Source: Campylobacterales bacterium
Lineage (GTDB): Bacteria; Campylobacterota; Campylobacteria; Campylobacterales; Sulfurimonadaceae
Direction of reading: 5' to 3'
Assembly (NCBI GenBank): GCA_016938735.1
Contig: JAFGUB010000030.1
Coordinates: 1-55,584, forward strand
Length of the DNA: 55,584 bases
The notes under the pieces are model-generated. The model was not told the DNA's origin and searched no databases. It saw only the letters and a program-made list of their open reading frames with translations. Shown piece by piece: positions 1,738-19,315 of the stretch. The translations under genes were made by a program, and so were the position numbers. Numbering within the stretch: position 1 is the first letter of the stretch; the number at the start of each line of letters is the position of its first letter.

Positions 1738-3387
1738 TCAAGCGCCGGGAAGATCCATACGGTGTTCGATGGAGTAGGTAAAGGTTGGGGTGGTGAGCCC
1801 TTCAATCGTTTCGATAAACTCTCCGGTTTTGGCATCTACGACCAAAATACGTCCGCCCATCCAGTCTGAAATATACATATGCTCTCCGTGTAATGCGGGT
1901 TCAGCATGGAGTAATCGAGGCGTCACCGCTTCGCCTTTCTCATTTTTTGGTGCTTTTGTGGACCATTTTTTGATCACTTTGTGCGTTTTGGCATCAATGA
2001 GTTTGATCTCTCCCTCTTTGTTGGCTTCGATGATGCGCTCGACCATCAGAGAGTCTTTGCCGATCAGATGCACCTTATTGTAGTTGTCCTCACCGCCGAT
2101 GACATTGTCTGCCCAGATATACGGGGTATGTTCGTTGGTGCCTACAAACAGACCGCCGCCGGAGGTTTTGACCTGCTTGGCCACGTTCCATTGATTGTCC
2201 CAGATGGTGACTTGTCCGAGGTTCATGTTGACGGTAGCGTGGTACTGTTTGCCCATTTTTTCTGAAAACCAGCTTGAGCCTTGACCAGGATGCGGTTTGG
2301 TGCCGGGACCCGTATAGACTTTGCCTGAGAGTGTTTTGGTCTTAAAGTCGATGATACCCATCACGTCGCTGCCTTGTGAAGCGATCATGTAGTAGCGTCC
2401 TACCTCTTCGCCTTCATTCAAGAAGGCATCATGCAGTATTTTGCCAACGCCTGCAATGTCGCCGACAATCGGAAAATCTGGTTTGCTGTAGTCGATGATA
2501 TAGACATGGCCTGCATCTTTAAGCGCAAAAGCGATGTATGGACCATATGGGGTGTCTGCAATCGAAGCGACCCGTGATGAGCCCAGATTGCCATCCATGT
2601 CAATAACACTGCTGGTGGGGTAGACTTTGAGCGGTTTAAGCGTCATAGCGTCAAGCAACACGGCGCCGCCGGGGACATAGTTGCCGGCTAGAACATAGCG
2701 TCCATCAGGGGTGCAGGCAAGGCCGCGGCTGTCGCTTCCGACGCGAATCTTAGCGATGATCGGCTGCCCGGGTGCATTGAGGTCAAACATATTAACCCAA
2801 CCGTCACGGCTGATGTTGTAGACATAGCGGGGGATTCGTTTGTTAACTACAGTGACGTGGGTGGCAAATCCTGATTCGTGTTTGGAGAGGACTTTGTTGG
2901 TCGTTCCGTCGATAAAGCCCACTTTAGAAGCGTCACGCTCCGTAAAGACGACGATATCCTGAACACTTTTGACATCGGAGGGTTTTGGGTATTTTTTGTA
3001 GAGCGCTTCGCGATCCTGGAGAATCTTGTGCGTCGCCTCTACATCCTGCATGGTTAGGTTTTTGATCTGCTGCCCTTCGTATTTGAGCAGATACTCCACC
3101 ATCTTATCGGCGTCATCTTTGTTCATCTTCCCCTTAAACGCAGGCATGGCCGTACCGGCGCGACCGTTGAGGATCACTTCAGAGAGGGAGTAGGCATTTT
3201 TTTTGCCCAAAGCTTTAGGCTCAAGGCTGCTGCCCACGCCGCCTTCGTGGTTGGGGCCATGGCACCCTTGGCACTCTTTTTCAAACATGGCAGCCACGTC
3301 CATCTTCGACTCTCCCGCCATCATCGGCACTGCACCCACAAGAACCGCAATCAGTGAACACTTCACCGTCTTCATCATCGCTTGCAT
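1738..3387 (-). CDS. nirS: Cytochrome cd1 nitrite reductase
   Basis: This 549-residue periplasmic enzyme reduces nitrite to nitric oxide. A signal peptide (about residues 1-24) precedes a cytochrome c domain with the haem motif C39-Q-G-C42-H43 and a likely Met81 ligand in TAMPAF. The rest is the eight-bladed haem d1 propeller: ATHVTV (His177) matches the proximal d1 ligand, and His319 (ILHDAF) with His366 (TKPHPGQG) matches the catalytic pair of NirS. Length is normal for the family. AAGGAG lies five bases before ATG 3387. It follows the Crp gene, and a promoter with a perfect Fnr-type box lies upstream. Haem d1 synthesis genes are not in the window. Confidence 0.93.
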   Translation of the reverse strand: MQAMMKTVKCSLIAVLVGAVPMMAGESKMDVAAMFEKECQGCHGPNHEGGVGSSLEPKALGKKNAYSLSEVILNGRAGTAMPAFKGKMNKDDADKMVEYLLKYEGQQIKNLTMQDVEATHKILQDREALYKKYPKPSDVKSVQDIVVFTERDASKVGFIDGTTNKVLSKHESGFATHVTVVNKRIPRYVYNISRDGWVNMFDLNAPGQPIIAKIRVGSDSRGLACTPDGRYVLAGNYVPGGAVLLDAMTLKPLKVYPTSSVIDMDGNLGSSRVASIADTPYGPYIAFALKDAGHVYIIDYSKPDFPIVGDIAGVGKILHDAFLNEGEEVGRYYMIASQGSDVMGIIDFKTKTLSGKVYTGPGTKPHPGQGSSWFSEKMGKQYHATVNMNLGQVTIWDNQWNVAKQVKTSGGGLFVGTNEHTPYIWADNVIGGEDNYNKVHLIGKDSLMVERIIEANKEGEIKLIDAKTHKVIKKWSTKAPKNEKGEAVTPRLLHAEPALHGEHMYISDWMGGRILVVDAKTGEFIETIEGLTTPTFTYSIEHRMDLPGA

Positions 3388-3511: not shown

Positions 3512-4177
3512 TTACGAAAATAGCTCTCTGAGCCCCTCTTTGTTGAGGATGGAAAAGTATTTGCCCTCGTCGCTGATCAAACCGAGCATTTTGAGTTTTT
3601 TTAACGATCGAGAGAGGGTTTCTGGCGTTAGTCCCAATATCGTCGCGATCATCGCCCGCTTGGTCGATCCGGAGGCCGTGCCGTGTTCATAAAGAAACTT
3701 GGCCACGCGCGACGTAGCGTCGAGGGAGAGACGGTTGGTGATGATGTTGTCAAGATATTTGATCTTATGGGACAGCGAAGTAATGAAGGCAAAGGCGATG
3801 TCGGGGTTTCGCAGAAAGTCCCTCTCAAAGAGCGGATAGTCGATTTCAAGCACCACACCCTCGGTTTGAAACTCTGCCGTTGCCGGATAGGGAATATGTC
3901 GAAGATTGGCCATTTCAGCCACAAGCGACACCGGACAAAAGTGGTGCAGTACGATCTCGTTTTCGCGCATATCGGTTTTGTACGCTTTGACGATGCCCTC
4001 GATCAGCACAAAGAGTTTTTTACTTTGGCTCCCTTCATAAAAAAGTACACTGCCTGATGTGTAAGCAACAAAGCGACTGATCCCGCCAAGCATCTTTAAG
4101 TCATCATCATTCAGTGCTGCAAACATTTCGACACTGCGCAGGCGCTCGATCATCGTCGTGAGGTTAGAGTCGGACAT
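3512..4177 (-). CDS. Crp/Fnr-family regulator, Dnr/NssR-like
   Basis: The protein has about 220 residues, with an N-terminal cyclic-nucleotide-binding-type sensor domain, a long dimer helix and a C-terminal winged helix. The recognition helix reads TPETLSRSLKKL, with the E-x-x-S-R residues that Fnr uses to read TTGAT half-sites. The Fnr N-terminal cysteine cluster is absent, so it is closer to NO-responsive Dnr/NnrR/NssR proteins. The frame is open to 4231; I prefer ATG 4177, which overlaps the TonB receptor stop by 14 bases, but no strong ribosome site marks it. It is the best candidate in the window for binding the TTGAT-N4-ATCAA boxes (inference). Confidence 0.82.
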   Translation of the reverse strand: MSDSNLTTMIERLRSVEMFAALNDDDLKMLGGISRFVAYTSGSVLFYEGSQSKKLFVLIEGIVKAYKTDMRENEIVLHHFCPVSLVAEMANLRHIPYPATAEFQTEGVVLEIDYPLFERDFLRNPDIAFAFITSLSHKIKYLDNIITNRLSLDATSRVAKFLYEHGTASGSTKRAMIATILGLTPETLSRSLKKLKMLGLISDEGKYFSILNKEGLRELFS

Positions 4178-6380
4178 GAAGTTGTGCGAACCATGCCGTC
4201 CCTTCGGCACGCTCATAACTGTAGTATTCATGATCGAACAGGTTGTTGATGGAGAGACTAAGATTGATGGTATCGTCTATTCTGTATCCAAGCTTGAGAT
4301 TGACGATGCCTGAGGGGTCGAGTGAGCCGTAGACATCGGTCGCGGTATCGGCGTTGTCTGGGCGGTTGTATATTTTTGAGTGGTACATGTAATAAAGCGC
4401 CGTGTAAAAAAAGGCGTCGTCATAGATTGCCGACAGGGAATAGCGCTCACGCGCAATGCCTTCAAACTGCTTATTGACGGAAGCTGGATCGGCGTCATTT
4501 TCGAGCACCTCGGTGAAAGTTCGGGTCATGTTGGCACTCCAGAGCAGATGAAACGGTAACGGCTGTGTCCATGCCACCTCATAGCCCTGGCTGCGCGCTT
4601 TACCGACATTGATACGGCCGTAATAGGTGGTTCCATCAACGGTTTCAAGCGTTTTAGTCGAGAGCATCTCTTCAAGCTGGGTATGAAAAAGATAGGCTTT
4701 GAGCATCCCATAGCGTATCAAGCGCTGCTCGATGCCGATCTCGTAAGAGAGGCTGCGCTCAGGCTTCAGCTCGGGATTGGCGACATAGACCCGTTTCATC
4801 AGCGGAATTTCGTAGGTGCGGTAGAGATTGACCGCATCAGGCGCTCTAAAGGCGCTTCCGATGGAACTTTTGATTTGTGTTTCTGGGGTCAGGTTGTATC
4901 CGAGTGAGATTTTAGGCGCAAAATTGTTGTGCGTTTTGGCGTCATAATCGGCGTTGAGCAGGCTGTTGTCGGCTTGCATATCGTCACGGGTGTAGCCATC
5001 AAAGGTTTTCCATGTCTCATACCGCATACCCAGTGAAGCCCACCAATCTGCTCCAAAGTCATGGCGTACATCCGTATAGAGTGCGATGATCTCCTCTTTG
5101 CCTCCGGAGGCGCCGGTGCGCTCTGTTTTTGAAGATTCGTCGCGCCAATCTTTGAGTCCGTAGGTTTCGGCGTCTGCACTGTTTTGTTTGTATTCTGCGC
5201 CGATAAGATAACGCCCGCTCTTGGCACGGTGCAAATAGTTTACATGTAAAGCAGAGCTGCGGTTTTCACGTGGTGTGAGGGTACCTAAACCTCCATCGCG
5301 TGTCGCTTTGGAGTCGGCAGTGGTGTACCAGTCATCGGTAGAGAGATGGCTTAGTGAAGCGCTTAGTGTACCCTCCAGGAGGGCATCGCAATAGGCTAAC
5401 TGATAGAGACGACTCAGCAGATCGCTTTGACCCTGAAGAAACTTGCTCTCGCTAAGACGCGCTCCTGCCGCGTTGAAACTATAAGCCGTTTCGCCGCTCT
5501 CTTCAAGTGTGAGCAAGGAGCGGGGGTCGTCATACTCCAGATGATGATGCCCCTCGCGCACCGTCAGATCCCACCTTGCATCGTCATCTTGCTCAAAGCG
5601 CAGTTTGGCGCTGAGATGGTACTTATCCACACCCCCTCGGCCGGCATCGCCGACAATCCATTGGGGGGTTCCCGGAAGCGGTGAAGAGCTCTGAGCGACA
5701 AAGCCGTTGTATCCCGATGGTGGAATTTTTGAGACACTCACCCAATCAGAGCGGTATCCCTGCGTGTCCATTACGGAAGCGTCCAGGGCAAAGCGCCACG
5801 ATTCACCCAGACTATCGGCTGCTCGAAGATAACTCTGTATGACTCTGCCGTTGGCCTCATCATTATGGAGTGCGTCACCATAACCGATCGAAGCGCGATA
5901 CTCCGGCTTGTCAGGCATCTTGGTAACAAAATGTACCACGCCGCCCATAGCACTGCTGCCATAGAGACTGGAGTAGGGTCCGCGTACCACTTCGATCTGC
6001 TCTAGCGATTCAACGGGGAGGTTAAAGACGGAGGGGGCAGAACCGTTGTAGCTGGTGTTCATCACGACCCCATCAAGTAAAATGAGGGTGCGTGCCTGAT
6101 TGGGAATGCCGCGCAAAAGGATGGAAGGATTGACATCAGAGAGGCCGCGATGTTCGATGACGGTGGAGCCCTCTAAGCCCACCAGGGTCTCTTTGAGGTT
6201 GCCAAAAGGAAGCAGCTCAATCTGATCGGCATCCAGCAGCGTCGTGTTGGCCGAGAGCTCTTGGATCGTCGAATCGGTTTGAGAGGTTGTAACAATCACG
6301 CTTTCAAGCAACTGCTCCTCTAAGCCAAAAAGCAGCGTAGCGCATAGCAATGCGCAAGGGATCGTAACACTTTGTTTCAT
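4164..6380 (-). CDS. TonB-dependent outer-membrane receptor
   Basis: The 738-residue protein has a signal peptide, a TonB box (ESVIVTTSQ), a plug domain (about 45-160, with LLDGVVMN and VRGPYSSLYGSSAMGGVVHFVT) and a 22-strand barrel ending in the aromatic/leucine C-terminus FAQLHVRL. AGAGG precedes ATG 6380. It imports a bound nutrient across the outer membrane using TonB energy. The ligand cannot be read from the sequence; iron chelate, copper, haem or cobalamin are all possible. Its stop overlaps the start of the Crp regulator, so the two are probably co-transcribed within the denitrification cluster. Confidence 0.9.
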   Translation of the reverse strand: MKQSVTIPCALLCATLLFGLEEQLLESVIVTTSQTDSTIQELSANTTLLDADQIELLPFGNLKETLVGLEGSTVIEHRGLSDVNPSILLRGIPNQARTLILLDGVVMNTSYNGSAPSVFNLPVESLEQIEVVRGPYSSLYGSSAMGGVVHFVTKMPDKPEYRASIGYGDALHNDEANGRVIQSYLRAADSLGESWRFALDASVMDTQGYRSDWVSVSKIPPSGYNGFVAQSSSPLPGTPQWIVGDAGRGGVDKYHLSAKLRFEQDDDARWDLTVREGHHHLEYDDPRSLLTLEESGETAYSFNAAGARLSESKFLQGQSDLLSRLYQLAYCDALLEGTLSASLSHLSTDDWYTTADSKATRDGGLGTLTPRENRSSALHVNYLHRAKSGRYLIGAEYKQNSADAETYGLKDWRDESSKTERTGASGGKEEIIALYTDVRHDFGADWWASLGMRYETWKTFDGYTRDDMQADNSLLNADYDAKTHNNFAPKISLGYNLTPETQIKSSIGSAFRAPDAVNLYRTYEIPLMKRVYVANPELKPERSLSYEIGIEQRLIRYGMLKAYLFHTQLEEMLSTKTLETVDGTTYYGRINVGKARSQGYEVAWTQPLPFHLLWSANMTRTFTEVLENDADPASVNKQFEGIARERYSLSAIYDDAFFYTALYYMYHSKIYNRPDNADTATDVYGSLDPSGIVNLKLGYRIDDTINLSLSINNLFDHEYYSYERAEGTAWFAQLHVRL

Positions 6381-6463: not shown

Positions 6464-6628
6464 TTAAACCTCTTGCTTGGGGCTAAAATGCTCCAAAGCC
6501 AGAAGGGTGACAAAACTCCCAAATACAGCGGTGAAAAAGCCGTATCCGGCCGCCGCTTCGCCCTCATACAAGAAGGCGACCACGCCGCCGGAAATCAGCC
6601 AAAACCCTAACCCCAGTGCGAAGCGCAT
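6464..6628 (-). CDS. Small two-helix membrane protein (54 aa) after norB
   Basis: ATG 6628, three bases after the norB stop (TAA at 6634-6632), opens a 54-residue frame ending at TAA 6466-6464. The product has two hydrophobic segments (LGLGFWLISGGVVAFLY and GYGFFTAVFGSFVTLLAL) joined by a short EGEAAAG turn, and ends FSPKQEV. Tight spacing implies translational coupling with norB. Small membrane peptides often accompany haem-copper oxidases; whether this one is an NO reductase subunit is inference. I do not recognise a named family. Confidence 0.6.
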   Translation of the reverse strand: MRFALGLGFWLISGGVVAFLYEGEAAAGYGFFTAVFGSFVTLLALEHFSPKQEV

Positions 6629-6631
6629 GGA

Positions 6632-7528
6632 TTAGGCCTTGATTTTGCGAGAGAAGTAAATCTTCTCCAGCAGATCGTAAAGCACGATCGCCCCGCCGAC
6701 GATCATCATGCCGTCGGGGAAGATACGAATCCACATCATTCCCTCCATGGCCACCAGAATATCGCGCGCCCTTGTGGCGTAGTAGCCCAGTTCATAAGCC
6801 ACCTGCGCCTGATGCAAGCCGATGATCATGGTCGGAATGGAGTAGAGAATGACCCCGATGGTGAGCAACCAAAAGCCCCATTTGCTCAGACTCTCATTCC
6901 ACACCAGCCCTTTGGCCAGAGCGTTGGCACGCGCCGTCATATAGATGAAGGCGTAGCTGATATAACCAAAGGCGCCCAGCAGTGCCACGTGACCGTGTGG
7001 CATGATCAGGTAGGTTCCGTGTGAGTAGTAGCCGATGGTAGGCGTGTTGATCACCATACCCAGCCATCCCGCACCAAACCAGTTGAGAAACGCCGAACCG
7101 GCCAGCCACAAAAAGGGCACGCCCCAGTCAAAGCCGCGTCCCATCTCTTTAATTTGCTTCTGCTCTTTGATCGCCTCGACCATCAAGATAATGAGCGGCA
7201 GCGGTTCCAGCGCCGAGAAGACGCCGCCGATGGCGATCCAGTACTCATCGGCACCCTGCCACCAGTAGTGGTGTCCCACACCCAGCGTTCCTGTGGCAAT
7301 GACAAGGAAGATCTCAAAAAGCATGATGCGCTCCGCCACGCTGCGGCGTACCAGCCCCAGAGCGACTGAAAGATAAGCCAAAACACCGGCAGCAAAGAGC
7401 TCAAACGTCAGCTCCACCCACAGATGCACGACCCACCAGCGGTAGTAGTCATCGACGGTGAAGTTGGGCATGATTTTGTGAATCGGCATCATCCCCGCGA
7501 AATAGAGCGTGGCAATACCAAAGGCCGA
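6632..7528 (-). CDS. norB: Quinol-type nitric oxide reductase, C-terminal part (after in-frame UGA)
   Basis: This is the continuation, in the same frame, of the gene starting at 8857. Directly after the UGA it reads SAFGIATLYFAGMMPIHK, then RWWVVHLWVE with the FeB-site His and the family's Glu, then HYWWQGADEY and a run of helices with HGH (LIMPHGHVALLGA), as in the catalytic subunit of NO reductases. It ends FSRKIKA. A separate restart at ATG 7492 is possible, but no ribosome site stands out, and the split falls inside the membrane core. The two pieces together make 741 residues including the UGA position, the normal size of a one-subunit qNor. Confidence 0.85.
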   Translation of the reverse strand, partial: SAFGIATLYFAGMMPIHKIMPNFTVDDYYRWWVVHLWVELTFELFAAGVLAYLSVALGLVRRSVAERIMLFEIFLVIATGTLGVGHHYWWQGADEYWIAIGGVFSALEPLPLIILMVEAIKEQKQIKEMGRGFDWGVPFLWLAGSAFLNWFGAGWLGMVINTPTIGYYSHGTYLIMPHGHVALLGAFGYISYAFIYMTARANALAKGLVWNESLSKWGFWLLTIGVILYSIPTMIIGLHQAQVAYELGYYATRARDILVAMEGMMWIRIFPDGMMIVGGAIVLYDLLEKIYFSRKIKA

Positions 7529-8857
7529 TCAGATAATGGTGCCGACGAGCACATCATTTTTGGCTTTGCGAATGGTGCTATAAACCATCCCGAACCAAAA
7601 GACCAGACCCACCAAAAGCCCGATATCCCATACGCGCCCCAGCTCCAGGAACTCACGCCCTTCAGAGCCAAACCAGAACCATGTTTCACGCAAATAGCCC
7701 ATAGAACCGAGATAAATCCCGATGAGTCCGCCGCCGCCTACGATGAGGAGCGCGACCCACAGTACATCCACAAGGCGGGGGAAACGCAGATCTTTGCCGG
7801 CAACAATCGGTGCAATCAGCAGTCCGCCCACGAGCCAGCCCACGGCAACCCAGACAATAGCAAGGTTGAGGTGCAACTGTCGTACGACGTTAAAGGGCAA
7901 AATATCCTGCGAGATCAAAAAGTGATCGGTAGGATCGGCGTAGATATGGGCCAGATAGCCGCCCAAAATGAGCTGCAAGAGCGAAAAGAGCGCCACGATA
8001 GGAACATATTTGAGCAGTTTCTCCTGTGAGGGGAAGATGCTGGTGATCTTAAGCGGCTCTTCGAGCTTCTCTTTTGAATCATCATTCTCCTTGATGAGGT
8101 ACTCATACGCCAGATAGATCACCAAAATGGTTGCAGGCCAGAGTAGCAGCCACTCCCACAGCGTAATGTTGTGAGAAGCCCAGGTGACATCCTGATCGAT
8201 CATCGGCTCTTTGGGCCAGTTGTTTGACCAAGTACGATCGGTACCGGGGCGTTTAGACGAAGCGACCATCTGCGACCAGTCCACAAAGGCAGCGATACGT
8301 GATGCCTCTTCGGGCTTGATCACCCCACCGCGCCATGCGCGCTCATGATCGCCCTCGACCAGAAACTTGATGAGATAATCACGATTGGCTTTGTAGGCCA
8401 ACGCCGAAGCATCCGAATAGACGATCTGCTCTTCACTCATCACCACGGCGTTGAAGTCTGCTTTGGTCAGCTCCTTGACGGCGCCGCGCTCTGCCGCGCT
8501 CAGTTCGGCACTTGGTTTGCCATAGTGTTTGACACCGAAGAAATCATAAAGAAACTCGGCACGCTTGTGCATGAATTCCGTCGTGAAGTCGGGTCCAAGG
8601 TAGGCCCCCATCCCCAGCATCGAGCCGTAATCCATCAGGCCGAACTGCTGGAAATCGCCTTTACCTTTGACGATGTCGTCGTAGGTATAGAGCAGCTCTC
8701 CGCTTTGGCTCTTGACGATCTGCGGCAGCGGCGGCACCTCTTTGGCCAGATTGGCGGTGAAGTAGATCAGCACCGTCACCATAAATATTCCGATGATCCA
8801 GAACGCGCCATAAAGGCCTTTTCGGCTCATAAACCCTTCCAATGCCCTAGAAAGCAT
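7529..8857 (-). CDS. norB: Quinol-type nitric oxide reductase, N-terminal part (ends at in-frame UGA)
   Basis: These 442 residues hold the qNor N-terminal region: a first helix (LYGAFWIIGIFMVTVLIYF), the large periplasmic domain with the typical YGSMLGMGAYLGPDF segment, a second helix, and the first haem-copper helices, including LPFNVVRQLHLNLAIVWVAVGWLVGG with a haem ligand His. The frame stops at TGA (minus strand, bases 7531-7529, codon 443 of 742) and continues without a shift. NO reduction to N2O needs the C-terminal half, so the gene is either non-functional, read through, or carries a sequence error. An Fnr box and -10 lie upstream. Confidence 0.88.
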   Translation of the reverse strand: MLSRALEGFMSRKGLYGAFWIIGIFMVTVLIYFTANLAKEVPPLPQIVKSQSGELLYTYDDIVKGKGDFQQFGLMDYGSMLGMGAYLGPDFTTEFMHKRAEFLYDFFGVKHYGKPSAELSAAERGAVKELTKADFNAVVMSEEQIVYSDASALAYKANRDYLIKFLVEGDHERAWRGGVIKPEEASRIAAFVDWSQMVASSKRPGTDRTWSNNWPKEPMIDQDVTWASHNITLWEWLLLWPATILVIYLAYEYLIKENDDSKEKLEEPLKITSIFPSQEKLLKYVPIVALFSLLQLILGGYLAHIYADPTDHFLISQDILPFNVVRQLHLNLAIVWVAVGWLVGGLLIAPIVAGKDLRFPRLVDVLWVALLIVGGGGLIGIYLGSMGYLRETWFWFGSEGREFLELGRVWDIGLLVGLVFWFGMVYSTIRKAKNDVLVGTII

Positions 8858-8885: not shown

Positions 8886-8927
8886 ATTCTAAGGTAGTAA
8901 TTATTTTTTGGCATTGATCTATATCAA
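8886..8927 (-). promoter_or_regulatory. norB promoter: Fnr/Dnr box and -10
   Basis: TTGATCTATATCAA (8914-8927) is a perfect TTGAT-N4-ATCAA box, and TAGAAT on the minus strand (8886-8891) is the -10, with 22 bases between them. The box overlaps the stop codon of the upstream EAL gene, so norB has its own promoter. Confidence 0.8.
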
Positions 8928-16967: not shown

Positions 16968-18014
16968 TTAGTTGAATGTTAACCGCACCGTTGTTCCCGC
17001 GTCCACTTTAGACGTCACGGTGAGGGAGATGTTCATCGCATCGCAGAGCCGTTTGACGATATGTAGGCCCAAACCGCTTGAACCTTGTTCGCTGAAATGG
17101 CGTTCAAAGACCCGTTCGCTTTGCGCGATACCGACACCCGTGTCGCGTACAAGGAGCTCTTTTCCATCGTATACGATCACTACCGATCCCCCTTCTTTGT
17201 TGTAACGACAGGCATTTGACAACAGCGCACTGATGATCTGATGTAGAGCATCGGCGTTAAGCGGGCGTGCTATACCCTTACATGTAAGCGCGAATTGAAG
17301 CGTGGGGTAGAGCAGACGATAGGTTGCCATCAACTCTTCAATGAGCGGACAGGGGGTTATTGTGGTGTTTGTAAACGGACGTTCATGCAGTAAGGTGGCG
17401 AGGTTTTCATGGAGGTTCATGATGCGTTTGGCGTTGGTCTCGATGCGCTCGAGCGCGCGCGTGTTGCTTGGAGTGCTGCGCAGTAGGGTGACGTTGAGCA
17501 AAATTGCAGTGATCGGAGTATTGAGATCGTGAATAAGGTCTTTTGAAAAAGCATCCAAGCGGCTGATGGTATCGCGCAGCGGATTAATGGCGCTGTGCGC
17601 CAGCCATGCGCTAAGAACGCCAAAAAGCAGCAACAAAAAGAGCTGAATCAGGTAGATGTGCATTCGTAGATGCCCCAGAGCCGTATCAAAACGGTCTCTG
17701 TTCATCTGTAGACGCAAATAGCCCTCTTCATGGGGAATGAACTTGATGATCTGTGTTTGTTTAAGACTCAGATTATCAATCGCAATGGAACGATTTATAT
17801 CGACTTGCCGATGTGTGACGGTTGTACTGTGATAGGAGGCATCGCCCATCTTGTAGGCTCGGGCGTAGTCGATCAGCTCAAAGTGCATCTGACCCAGCAG
17901 CGCTTCGTAACGCTCATGGTAGTAAAAGTGACCCGCTAAGAGAATGAGCGCTCCGACGCTACCGAAATAGACACCGAAAAATCGCCAAAAAGCACTCCGT
18001 TCATAGGGCTTCAA
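16968..18014 (-). CDS. Sensor histidine kinase
   Basis: The protein has about 348 residues: two membrane helices around a periplasmic stretch of about 100 residues, then a HisKA domain with the H-box SKDLIHDLNTPIT, and a HATPase domain with LLSNACRYN, VRDTGVGI and GSSGLGLHIVK. The kinase would phosphorylate one or both response regulators encoded just upstream. The start is uncertain: the frame is open to TTG 18050, but TTG 18014 gives LKPYERSAFW, a plausible N-terminus, with 14 bases of overlap into the regulator gene. Position directly before the efflux genes suggests it controls them (inference). Confidence 0.85.
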   Translation of the reverse strand: MKPYERSAFWRFFGVYFGSVGALILLAGHFYYHERYEALLGQMHFELIDYARAYKMGDASYHSTTVTHRQVDINRSIAIDNLSLKQTQIIKFIPHEEGYLRLQMNRDRFDTALGHLRMHIYLIQLFLLLLFGVLSAWLAHSAINPLRDTISRLDAFSKDLIHDLNTPITAILLNVTLLRSTPSNTRALERIETNAKRIMNLHENLATLLHERPFTNTTITPCPLIEELMATYRLLYPTLQFALTCKGIARPLNADALHQIISALLSNACRYNKEGGSVVIVYDGKELLVRDTGVGIAQSERVFERHFSEQGSSGLGLHIVKRLCDAMNISLTVTSKVDAGTTVRLTFN

Positions 18015-18654
18015 GACGGTATCCCAGCCCTCTGATCGTTTTGATTTCAAGGCCTAGTTTACGCAAATGGCTCATCATGACCCGCAATGATCCTTCACTA
18101 GACTCTTCGCCTTCGCCAAGTGCATAGAGCAGCTCCTCTTTGCGCACGACCGCTCCTCTGCCACGAAACAGTAATCCGACGATTTTTTGCTCATACGCGG
18201 TGAGACTGAGACGTCGATCATGATGATAGAGAAGATTAAGACCCAAATGAAAACTAAAAGCACCTGCGTGGATACGCTCCTCTTCGATCGATCGGGTACG
18301 TTTGAGCAAAGCACGTAAGCGTATGATGAGCTCTTCAAAAGCAAACGGTTTTTTGAGGTAATCCTCCGCGCCCACAGCGAAGCCTCTTGAAAGCGAGCTG
18401 ATATCGCCAAGCGCGGTGATAAAAATCGTCGGGGTCGTATCGCCGCAAGAGCGTAAAGAGCCTAGCAGGTCAAAACCGTTTTGAAAAGGGACGTTGACGT
18501 CAAAAATGTAGCAATCAAAGGCTCTTTTTTGCGTTAATAAGAGGACTTGGTGCGCATCGGTAGCGACCGTGACGCCGAAGCCTTCGATAGCAAGCAGTTC
18601 ACTAAGCGTTTCGCATAATGATGCGTCATCTTCTAGTAAGAGAACTGCGGCCAT
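18001..18654 (-). CDS. OmpR-family response regulator
   Basis: The protein has 217 residues. The receiver domain has acidic pocket residues in LLLEDD, phosphoacceptor Asp52 (IFDVNVP) and the conserved lysine (DYLKKPF), so it should be phosphorylated normally. A winged-helix DNA-binding domain follows (LTAYEQKIVGLLF, then GSLRVMMSHLRKLGLEIKTIRGLGYRL). It is the likely partner of the kinase whose gene overlaps its stop. Four bases separate it from the paralogous regulator upstream, so the two probably arose by tandem duplication. Confidence 0.9.
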   Translation of the reverse strand: MAAVLLLEDDASLCETLSELLAIEGFGVTVATDAHQVLLLTQKRAFDCYIFDVNVPFQNGFDLLGSLRSCGDTTPTIFITALGDISSLSRGFAVGAEDYLKKPFAFEELIIRLRALLKRTRSIEEERIHAGAFSFHLGLNLLYHHDRRLSLTAYEQKIVGLLFRGRGAVVRKEELLYALGEGEESSEGSLRVMMSHLRKLGLEIKTIRGLGYRLEAL

Positions 18655-18658
18655 AGCC

Positions 18659-19315
18659 TCACCCCTCTAACTCCAGTCGATACCCCTTGCCCCACTGCGT
18701 GCGGATCGGTAGGCCGATTTTGCGCAGATGGCTAATCATGACGCGTAGCGAAGCTTCGCTGCTCTCGTCTCTGCCAGAGAGCTCTTGGAGCATCTCACTT
18801 TTTTCCACGGTGGTGTTGCGGTTGCGAAAAAAGAGCTCTACGATTTTGCTTTCATAAGGGGTGAGGGTGATGCGCTCTTCGCCTTCATACAGGGCGCGGC
18901 GGTAGAGGTGGTAGCGAAAAGTACCTACATGTAAGAACTCCGTTTGGGCGCGGTAATGCCGACGCAGCGCCGCTTTGATGCGTACCGCGACCTCTTCGGT
19001 GTTGTAGGGTTTTTTGATGTAGTCATCTGCGCCGCAGAGAAAGCCCGCCGAGATCGACGCGACGTCGCTACGGTAACTGATGAAAATCGCCGGTGTCTGC
19101 ACCCCTGCGCGGCGCAGGCCCGTGAGCATCTCAAAGCCGCATCCGCGCTTGGGGTGCGCCTCAAGCAGCAACAGATCGAACGTGCGCCGAAAAGTCGCCT
19201 CTTCAAACGCTTCGGCGCTGCCGACGCAGACCACCTCAAACCCTTCGTTTGTGAGCGTGCGACAGAGGCTCTGTGCCTCTTCGCGCTCCTCTTCAAGCAA
19301 TAAAATCGATGCCAT
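18659..19315 (-). CDS. OmpR-family response regulator with Glu at the phosphoacceptor position
   Basis: This 218-residue paralogue of the neighbouring regulator has the same layout (LTPYESKIVELFF; ASLRVMISHLRKIGLPIRTQWGKGYRL). Residue 52, aligned with Asp52 of the neighbour, is Glu (LLLLEAHP), and the acidic pocket reads EEE with no Asp. The conserved lysine (DYIKKPY) and a hydroxyl residue (FISY) remain. Aspartate-to-glutamate changes often mimic the phosphorylated state, so this protein may act without phosphorylation; that is inference. It abuts the NnrS stop directly, so NnrS, both regulators, the kinase and the pump may share one transcript. Confidence 0.88.
   Translation of the reverse strand: MASILLLEEEREEAQSLCRTLTNEGFEVVCVGSAEAFEEATFRRTFDLLLLEAHPKRGCGFEMLTGLRRAGVQTPAIFISYRSDVASISAGFLCGADDYIKKPYNTEEVAVRIKAALRRHYRAQTEFLHVGTFRYHLYRRALYEGEERITLTPYESKIVELFFRNRNTTVEKSEMLQELSGRDESSEASLRVMISHLRKIGLPIRTQWGKGYRLELEG

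Follow-up and report, generated by a model that had tools for sequence, protein, structure and literature searches.

An in-frame UGA in the quinol nitric oxide reductase gene of a Campylobacterales bacterium, probably one of many genes lost to single stop codons

We propose that the norB gene of this Campylobacterales bacterium, which is of the quinol nitric oxide reductase (qNor) type, was probably inactivated by a recent and real nonsense mutation, a case of ordinary gene loss to which we give a probability of about 0.6 from comparison of sequences. The TGA that cuts the gene is not a new system of UGA decoding. By comparison with related genes, the stop would have arisen through a single-base change of a conserved tryptophan codon, TGG, to UGA, and norB would be one of roughly 30 genes lost via single stops, under weak selection, among dispensable and signalling genes.

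The interrupted gene lies at positions 6632 to 8857 on the minus strand of the 55,584-nucleotide stretch analysed here (the window), and comprises 742 codons including the final stop. Its frame runs from an ATG at 8857 through 442 codons to a TGA at 7531-7529 (codon 443), and past this TGA it continues unshifted for 298 more codons to a TAA at 6634-6632. The read-through length of 741 residues given in an earlier sequence-only reading is thus correct (442 codons, the stop codon and 298 codons), as is its description of an otherwise open gene split without a shift: both halves match one qNor, and the solved structures 3ayf and 6fwf align across the break. Chance does not explain the split frame, since the halves together cover a single protein from end to end. 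The upstream fragment (7529 to 8857, minus strand, 442 amino acids) carries the cytochrome c-like domain and the first helices, with an RQLH motif at residue 326. The N-terminal domain (PF22085, 148.8 bits) and the first part of COX1 precede the TGA, and the remainder of COX1 follows it. The downstream frame, counted from its first ATG (6632 to 7492, minus strand, 286 amino acids), holds HLWVE (478), GHHYWW (528) and SALE (548). The haem-copper-oxidase core with its nitric oxide reductase motifs HLWVE, HH and SALE is therefore present, as judged by motif only, and since all three motifs lie after the TGA the 442-residue product lacks the catalytic half. Translation would end at residue 442, within a transmembrane helix, and homology predicts an inactive enzyme, as the fragment would lack the residues that form the active site of non-haem iron and haem b3.

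The codon lost at position 443 is conserved without exception among the relatives compared. In all 83 qNor relatives (80 loci from a search of genome contigs and three from the same family; 59-78% identical), this position is TGG, which answers the earlier question of which codon is usual there. More distant cNOR relatives have alanine instead, so that Trp 443 marks this qNor subfamily. Full-length relatives share 195 invariant columns, of which the window keeps 194 and breaks only codon 443; decay elsewhere in the gene was looked for and is absent. Identity to the nearest relative is 76-80% on both sides of the TGA, and the pattern of differences (66-69% at third codon positions, 7-12% at second positions) is alike before and after it. 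By these comparisons, norB was under selection until recently. Only 4 of the family's 228 genomes have a qNor of the window's type, most of the others giving a cNOR-like match, and close relatives of this norB were located in Helicobacter and in Krumholzibacteria, Aminicenantes and Bacteroidales bins. A qNor relative from a Bacteroidales bin (L059) has three in-frame stops in the alignment and an N-terminal part that is apparently frameshifted or of poor quality.

The genomic setting of norB is one of nitrate and NO metabolism. Periplasmic nitrate reductase genes lie at 31-37 kb and NnrS at 19.3-20.5 kb; two response regulators of similar length stand in tandem at 18001-19315, beside a histidine kinase and NnrS. 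Just upstream of norB, at 8914-8927, is a perfect palindromic box of the FNR/DNR type, TTGATATAGATCAA. Matches to TTGAYNNNNRTCAA with at most one mismatch number 23 in the window against 5.6 expected, and perfect boxes stand upstream of several NO and nitrate genes. A CRP/FNR-family regulator (3512 to 4231, minus strand) is a candidate reader of the box upstream of norB. A protein with cytochrome c and cytochrome d1 domains (1738 to 3387, minus strand) matches 6rtd best among solved structures, followed by cd1 nitrite reductases; no other d1-domain protein was found in the genome, and this one stands without a NirF-like partner. Three bases past the norB stop, a 54-codon ORF (6464 to 6628, minus strand) belongs to no family and has no convincing counterpart 3' of norB in relatives. 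The earlier view of it as a maintained, coupled gene falls away, since an ORF that is not conserved at this place provides no evidence of maintenance.

Searches of the genome found no second NO reductase, no Hcp and no plasmid copy. The lack of a second NO reductase counts against the loss of norB, which would be costly to a nitrate reducer that makes NO. If the cell does make NO the loss matters, and the mutation would then be recent, the cell would live in an NO-free condition, or the stop would be an error. Should the stop be real, the strain is a nitrate reducer that is probably unable to use this qNor for NO reduction, and it may be a natural mutator.

The norB stop is not alone in this genome. 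A survey of 1.54 Mb, or 54% of the window's genome, in which a dicodon model was used to find stops with same-frame coding on both sides, gave about 16 genes, norB among them, that are each cut by a single in-frame stop. Extrapolation of this count suggests roughly 30 such genes genome-wide. Besides norB (C7:7529, by contig and position), they encode an Mqo-like oxidoreductase (C31:98134), MutS7 (C36:70503), two MCPs (C31:103442 and C14:72148), a GGDEF-EAL protein (C31:78127), a PAS hybrid kinase (C31:57304), two HD-domain sensors (C20:12775 and C4:32542), an ABC-type binding protein (C36:136133), an alpha carbonic anhydrase (C9:42774), PhoD (C28:49688), a NiFe hydrogenase large subunit (C4:38925), a molybdopterin oxidoreductase (C13:43518), a membrane protein (C4:8523) and a methyltransferase (C1:9018). 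In most of them Pfam domains span the stop or are present on both sides of it. The stops are TGA in two, TAG in eight and TAA in six, so that the earlier picture of an event at one site does not hold: in the half of the genome surveyed, some 15 genes besides norB are each cut by one stop, and all three kinds of stop are represented. A stricter frame model retained eight stops and one frameshift. Three related genomes used as controls (400 kb of G226, 160 kb of G224 and 187 kb of G013) yielded no convincing single-stop gene in 747 kb, where 3.9 to 7.7 would be expected at the rate of the window's genome, with sensitivity probably lower in the GC-rich G226 and G224. Frameshifts number about two against about 16 stops, and only those in MutS7 and at C9:77970, an apparent one-base shift in a GGDEF/EAL gene, look real; these counts are weak because the loose frameshift scan gave mainly gene junctions.

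Of the three explanations offered by the sequence-only reading, a recent nonsense mutation and a sequence error both fit the invariant TGG and the absence of decay, and readthrough at one site is unsupported. The choice is chiefly between a real mutation and an erroneous base of the draft consensus, arising from low coverage, strain mixture or damage, with norB intact in the living cells. We regard such an error as the less probable of these two and as a serious alternative. The assembly is a draft of 62 contigs, some of just 1.5-3.5 kb, and norB is otherwise perfect and the sole NO reductase found. Scattered base errors would give such a pattern, with some 16 single-base stops over 1.54 Mb and hardly any frameshifts, and a large excess of stops over frameshifts is not what natural pseudogenes or mismatch-repair mutators usually show. 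The mix of stops (2:8:6 for TGA:TAG:TAA) fits random single substitutions, for which 0.15:0.46:0.39 is expected, and an erroneous base in the consensus would look identical to a mutation.

Random miscalls do not, however, predict which bases and which genes were hit. At eight of the 11 sites that could be compared with a relative, the change is a C:G-to-T:A transition, where uniform substitution predicts 18% (p = 1e-4). Two of the eight are TGG to TGA, the second TGA case standing in for a tryptophan codon as norB does, one is TGG to TAG, and the rest turn glutamine codons into TAA or TAG; the three transversions affect two Tyr codons and one Lys codon. A bias towards transitions would equally come from C-to-T damage or from PCR error. 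Signalling genes hold 14.5% of coding length and make up seven of the 16 (p = 0.005; 0.02 if one uncertain case is dropped, leaving six), an enrichment that is mildly circular as some of those genes served as search queries. Random miscalls would neither cluster in this way nor spare housekeeping genes, none of which is among the 16 (P of about 0.03 on the assumption that 20% of coding DNA is essential), and they do not predict two lesions in MutS7. In the sister species G001, the single-stop genes that could be checked, several in number, are intact. Together, the transition bias, the excess of signalling genes, the avoidance of housekeeping genes and the doubly hit MutS7 favour real mutations filtered by selection, while the near absence of frameshifts and the draft assembly keep the error reading alive.

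If the mutations are real, loss of the mismatch-repair gene MutS7 may have helped, which we offer as conjecture. The MutS7-type gene occupies about 69504-72500 of contig C36 (loci L158-L163 and L290) and encodes MutS III, MutS V and an HNH-like C-terminus, the HNH matches being slightly under the Pfam cut-offs. It is broken twice, by a frameshift near residue 214 and by the in-frame TAG, which replaces a glutamine codon; in relatives the gene is full-length, with about 1000 codons. This glutamine codon is also replaced by a stop, an in-frame TAA, in the MutS7 of another genus of the family (L292, G040:C87:433-2583), perhaps by coincidence or as a hotspot. MutS proteins with a C-terminal HNH endonuclease are known from epsilonproteobacteria, giant viruses and octocoral mitochondria (Bilewitch and Degnan 2011, PMC3166940). 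It is a speculative and rather unlikely extension that MutS7 is the guardian of mismatch repair here, and that its loss made a natural mutator which shed norB and about 30 other dispensable genes via transitions. If true, mutation loads compared between genomes with and without MutS7 would offer a test of its function in bacteria.

The remaining explanations retain a functional norB product. UGA terminates 97 of 296 ORFs of at least 250 codons (456 kb), in agreement with the earlier statement that it is an ordinary stop elsewhere, and RF2 is intact and full length (505 bits). The only tRNA-Trp found has the anticodon CCA, and no UCA anticodon occurs among the genome's tRNAs; reassignment of UGA to tryptophan (code 4/25 type) was rejected on these grounds. 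A suppressor tRNA-Trp of the Hirsh type was likewise rejected, for the tRNA has the wild-type G24 in its D arm rather than A24, the position being counted by hand. A selenoprotein was rejected because no tRNA-Sec was found in the genome at cut-off and the relatives carry Trp rather than Cys or Sec.

It is improbable that UGA 443 is read through by tRNA-Trp (CCA) usefully often, which would give some full-length qNor at lowered expression. Natural leakage at UGA inserts tryptophan, the very residue needed at 443, Belinky et al. 2021 (PMC7918605) argue that bacterial genes frequently tolerate an in-frame stop, and the constraint on norB appears intact. That constraint is equally expected of a young mutation and does not discriminate. 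A T after UGA, as found at codon 443, favours termination in E. coli (a tight context), no suppressor tRNA was found in a genome with an intact RF2, and leakage of tRNA-Trp cannot account for the TAG and TAA lesions at Gln, Tyr and Lys sites elsewhere in the genome. Still harder to credit is a split enzyme whose two fragments are made separately and then assembled: the first ATG of the downstream frame is only 12 codons past the TGA, but the break is within a transmembrane helix, the restart would begin within a transmembrane segment without a well-placed ribosome-binding site (as judged by eye), and none of the 83 relatives has a split gene. Programmed recoding, whether by selenocysteine, by reassignment of UGA to Trp or by A-to-I editing, is the least credible of all, for despite the UGA lying exactly at an invariant TGG and the second TGA case also lying at a Trp codon, tRNA-Sec (at cut-off) and a UCA anticodon are missing from the genome, UGA is a normal terminator, the G preceding the A of UGA is unlike the known context of TadA editing, and the other cut genes have TAG or TAA.

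Set beside known systems, norB has the sequence features of a qNor in all but its continuity. It aligns full length across the stop with the solved enzymes of Geobacillus (3ayf, the best match, E 2.6e-125), Neisseria (6fwf/6l3h) and Alcaligenes (6qq5), and shares with them the fused N-terminal cytochrome c-like domain without CXXCH (here, without any cysteine at all) and the HLWVE, HH and SALE motifs downstream. It differs in that the single uninterrupted frame of a qNor is cut at codon 443, where 3ayf has Tyr and 6fwf has Ala opposite the expected Trp. Like the in-frame-stop genes of Belinky et al. 2021 (PMC7918605), it has one stop, normal constraint elsewhere and no further lesion; that study used conservation of the stop across strains, whereas here about 16 cases come from 54% of one genome. 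The MutS7 gene shares MutS III, MutS V and the HNH-like C-terminus with the described MutS7 (PMC3166940) and differs by its frameshift and in-frame TAG. Such sites invite stories of UGA recoding, and caution is due; by itself the norB stop is ordinary, one nonsense base in a conserved enzyme gene. It points instead to an unusually large number of dispensable genes with single stops, alongside a doubly broken MutS7.
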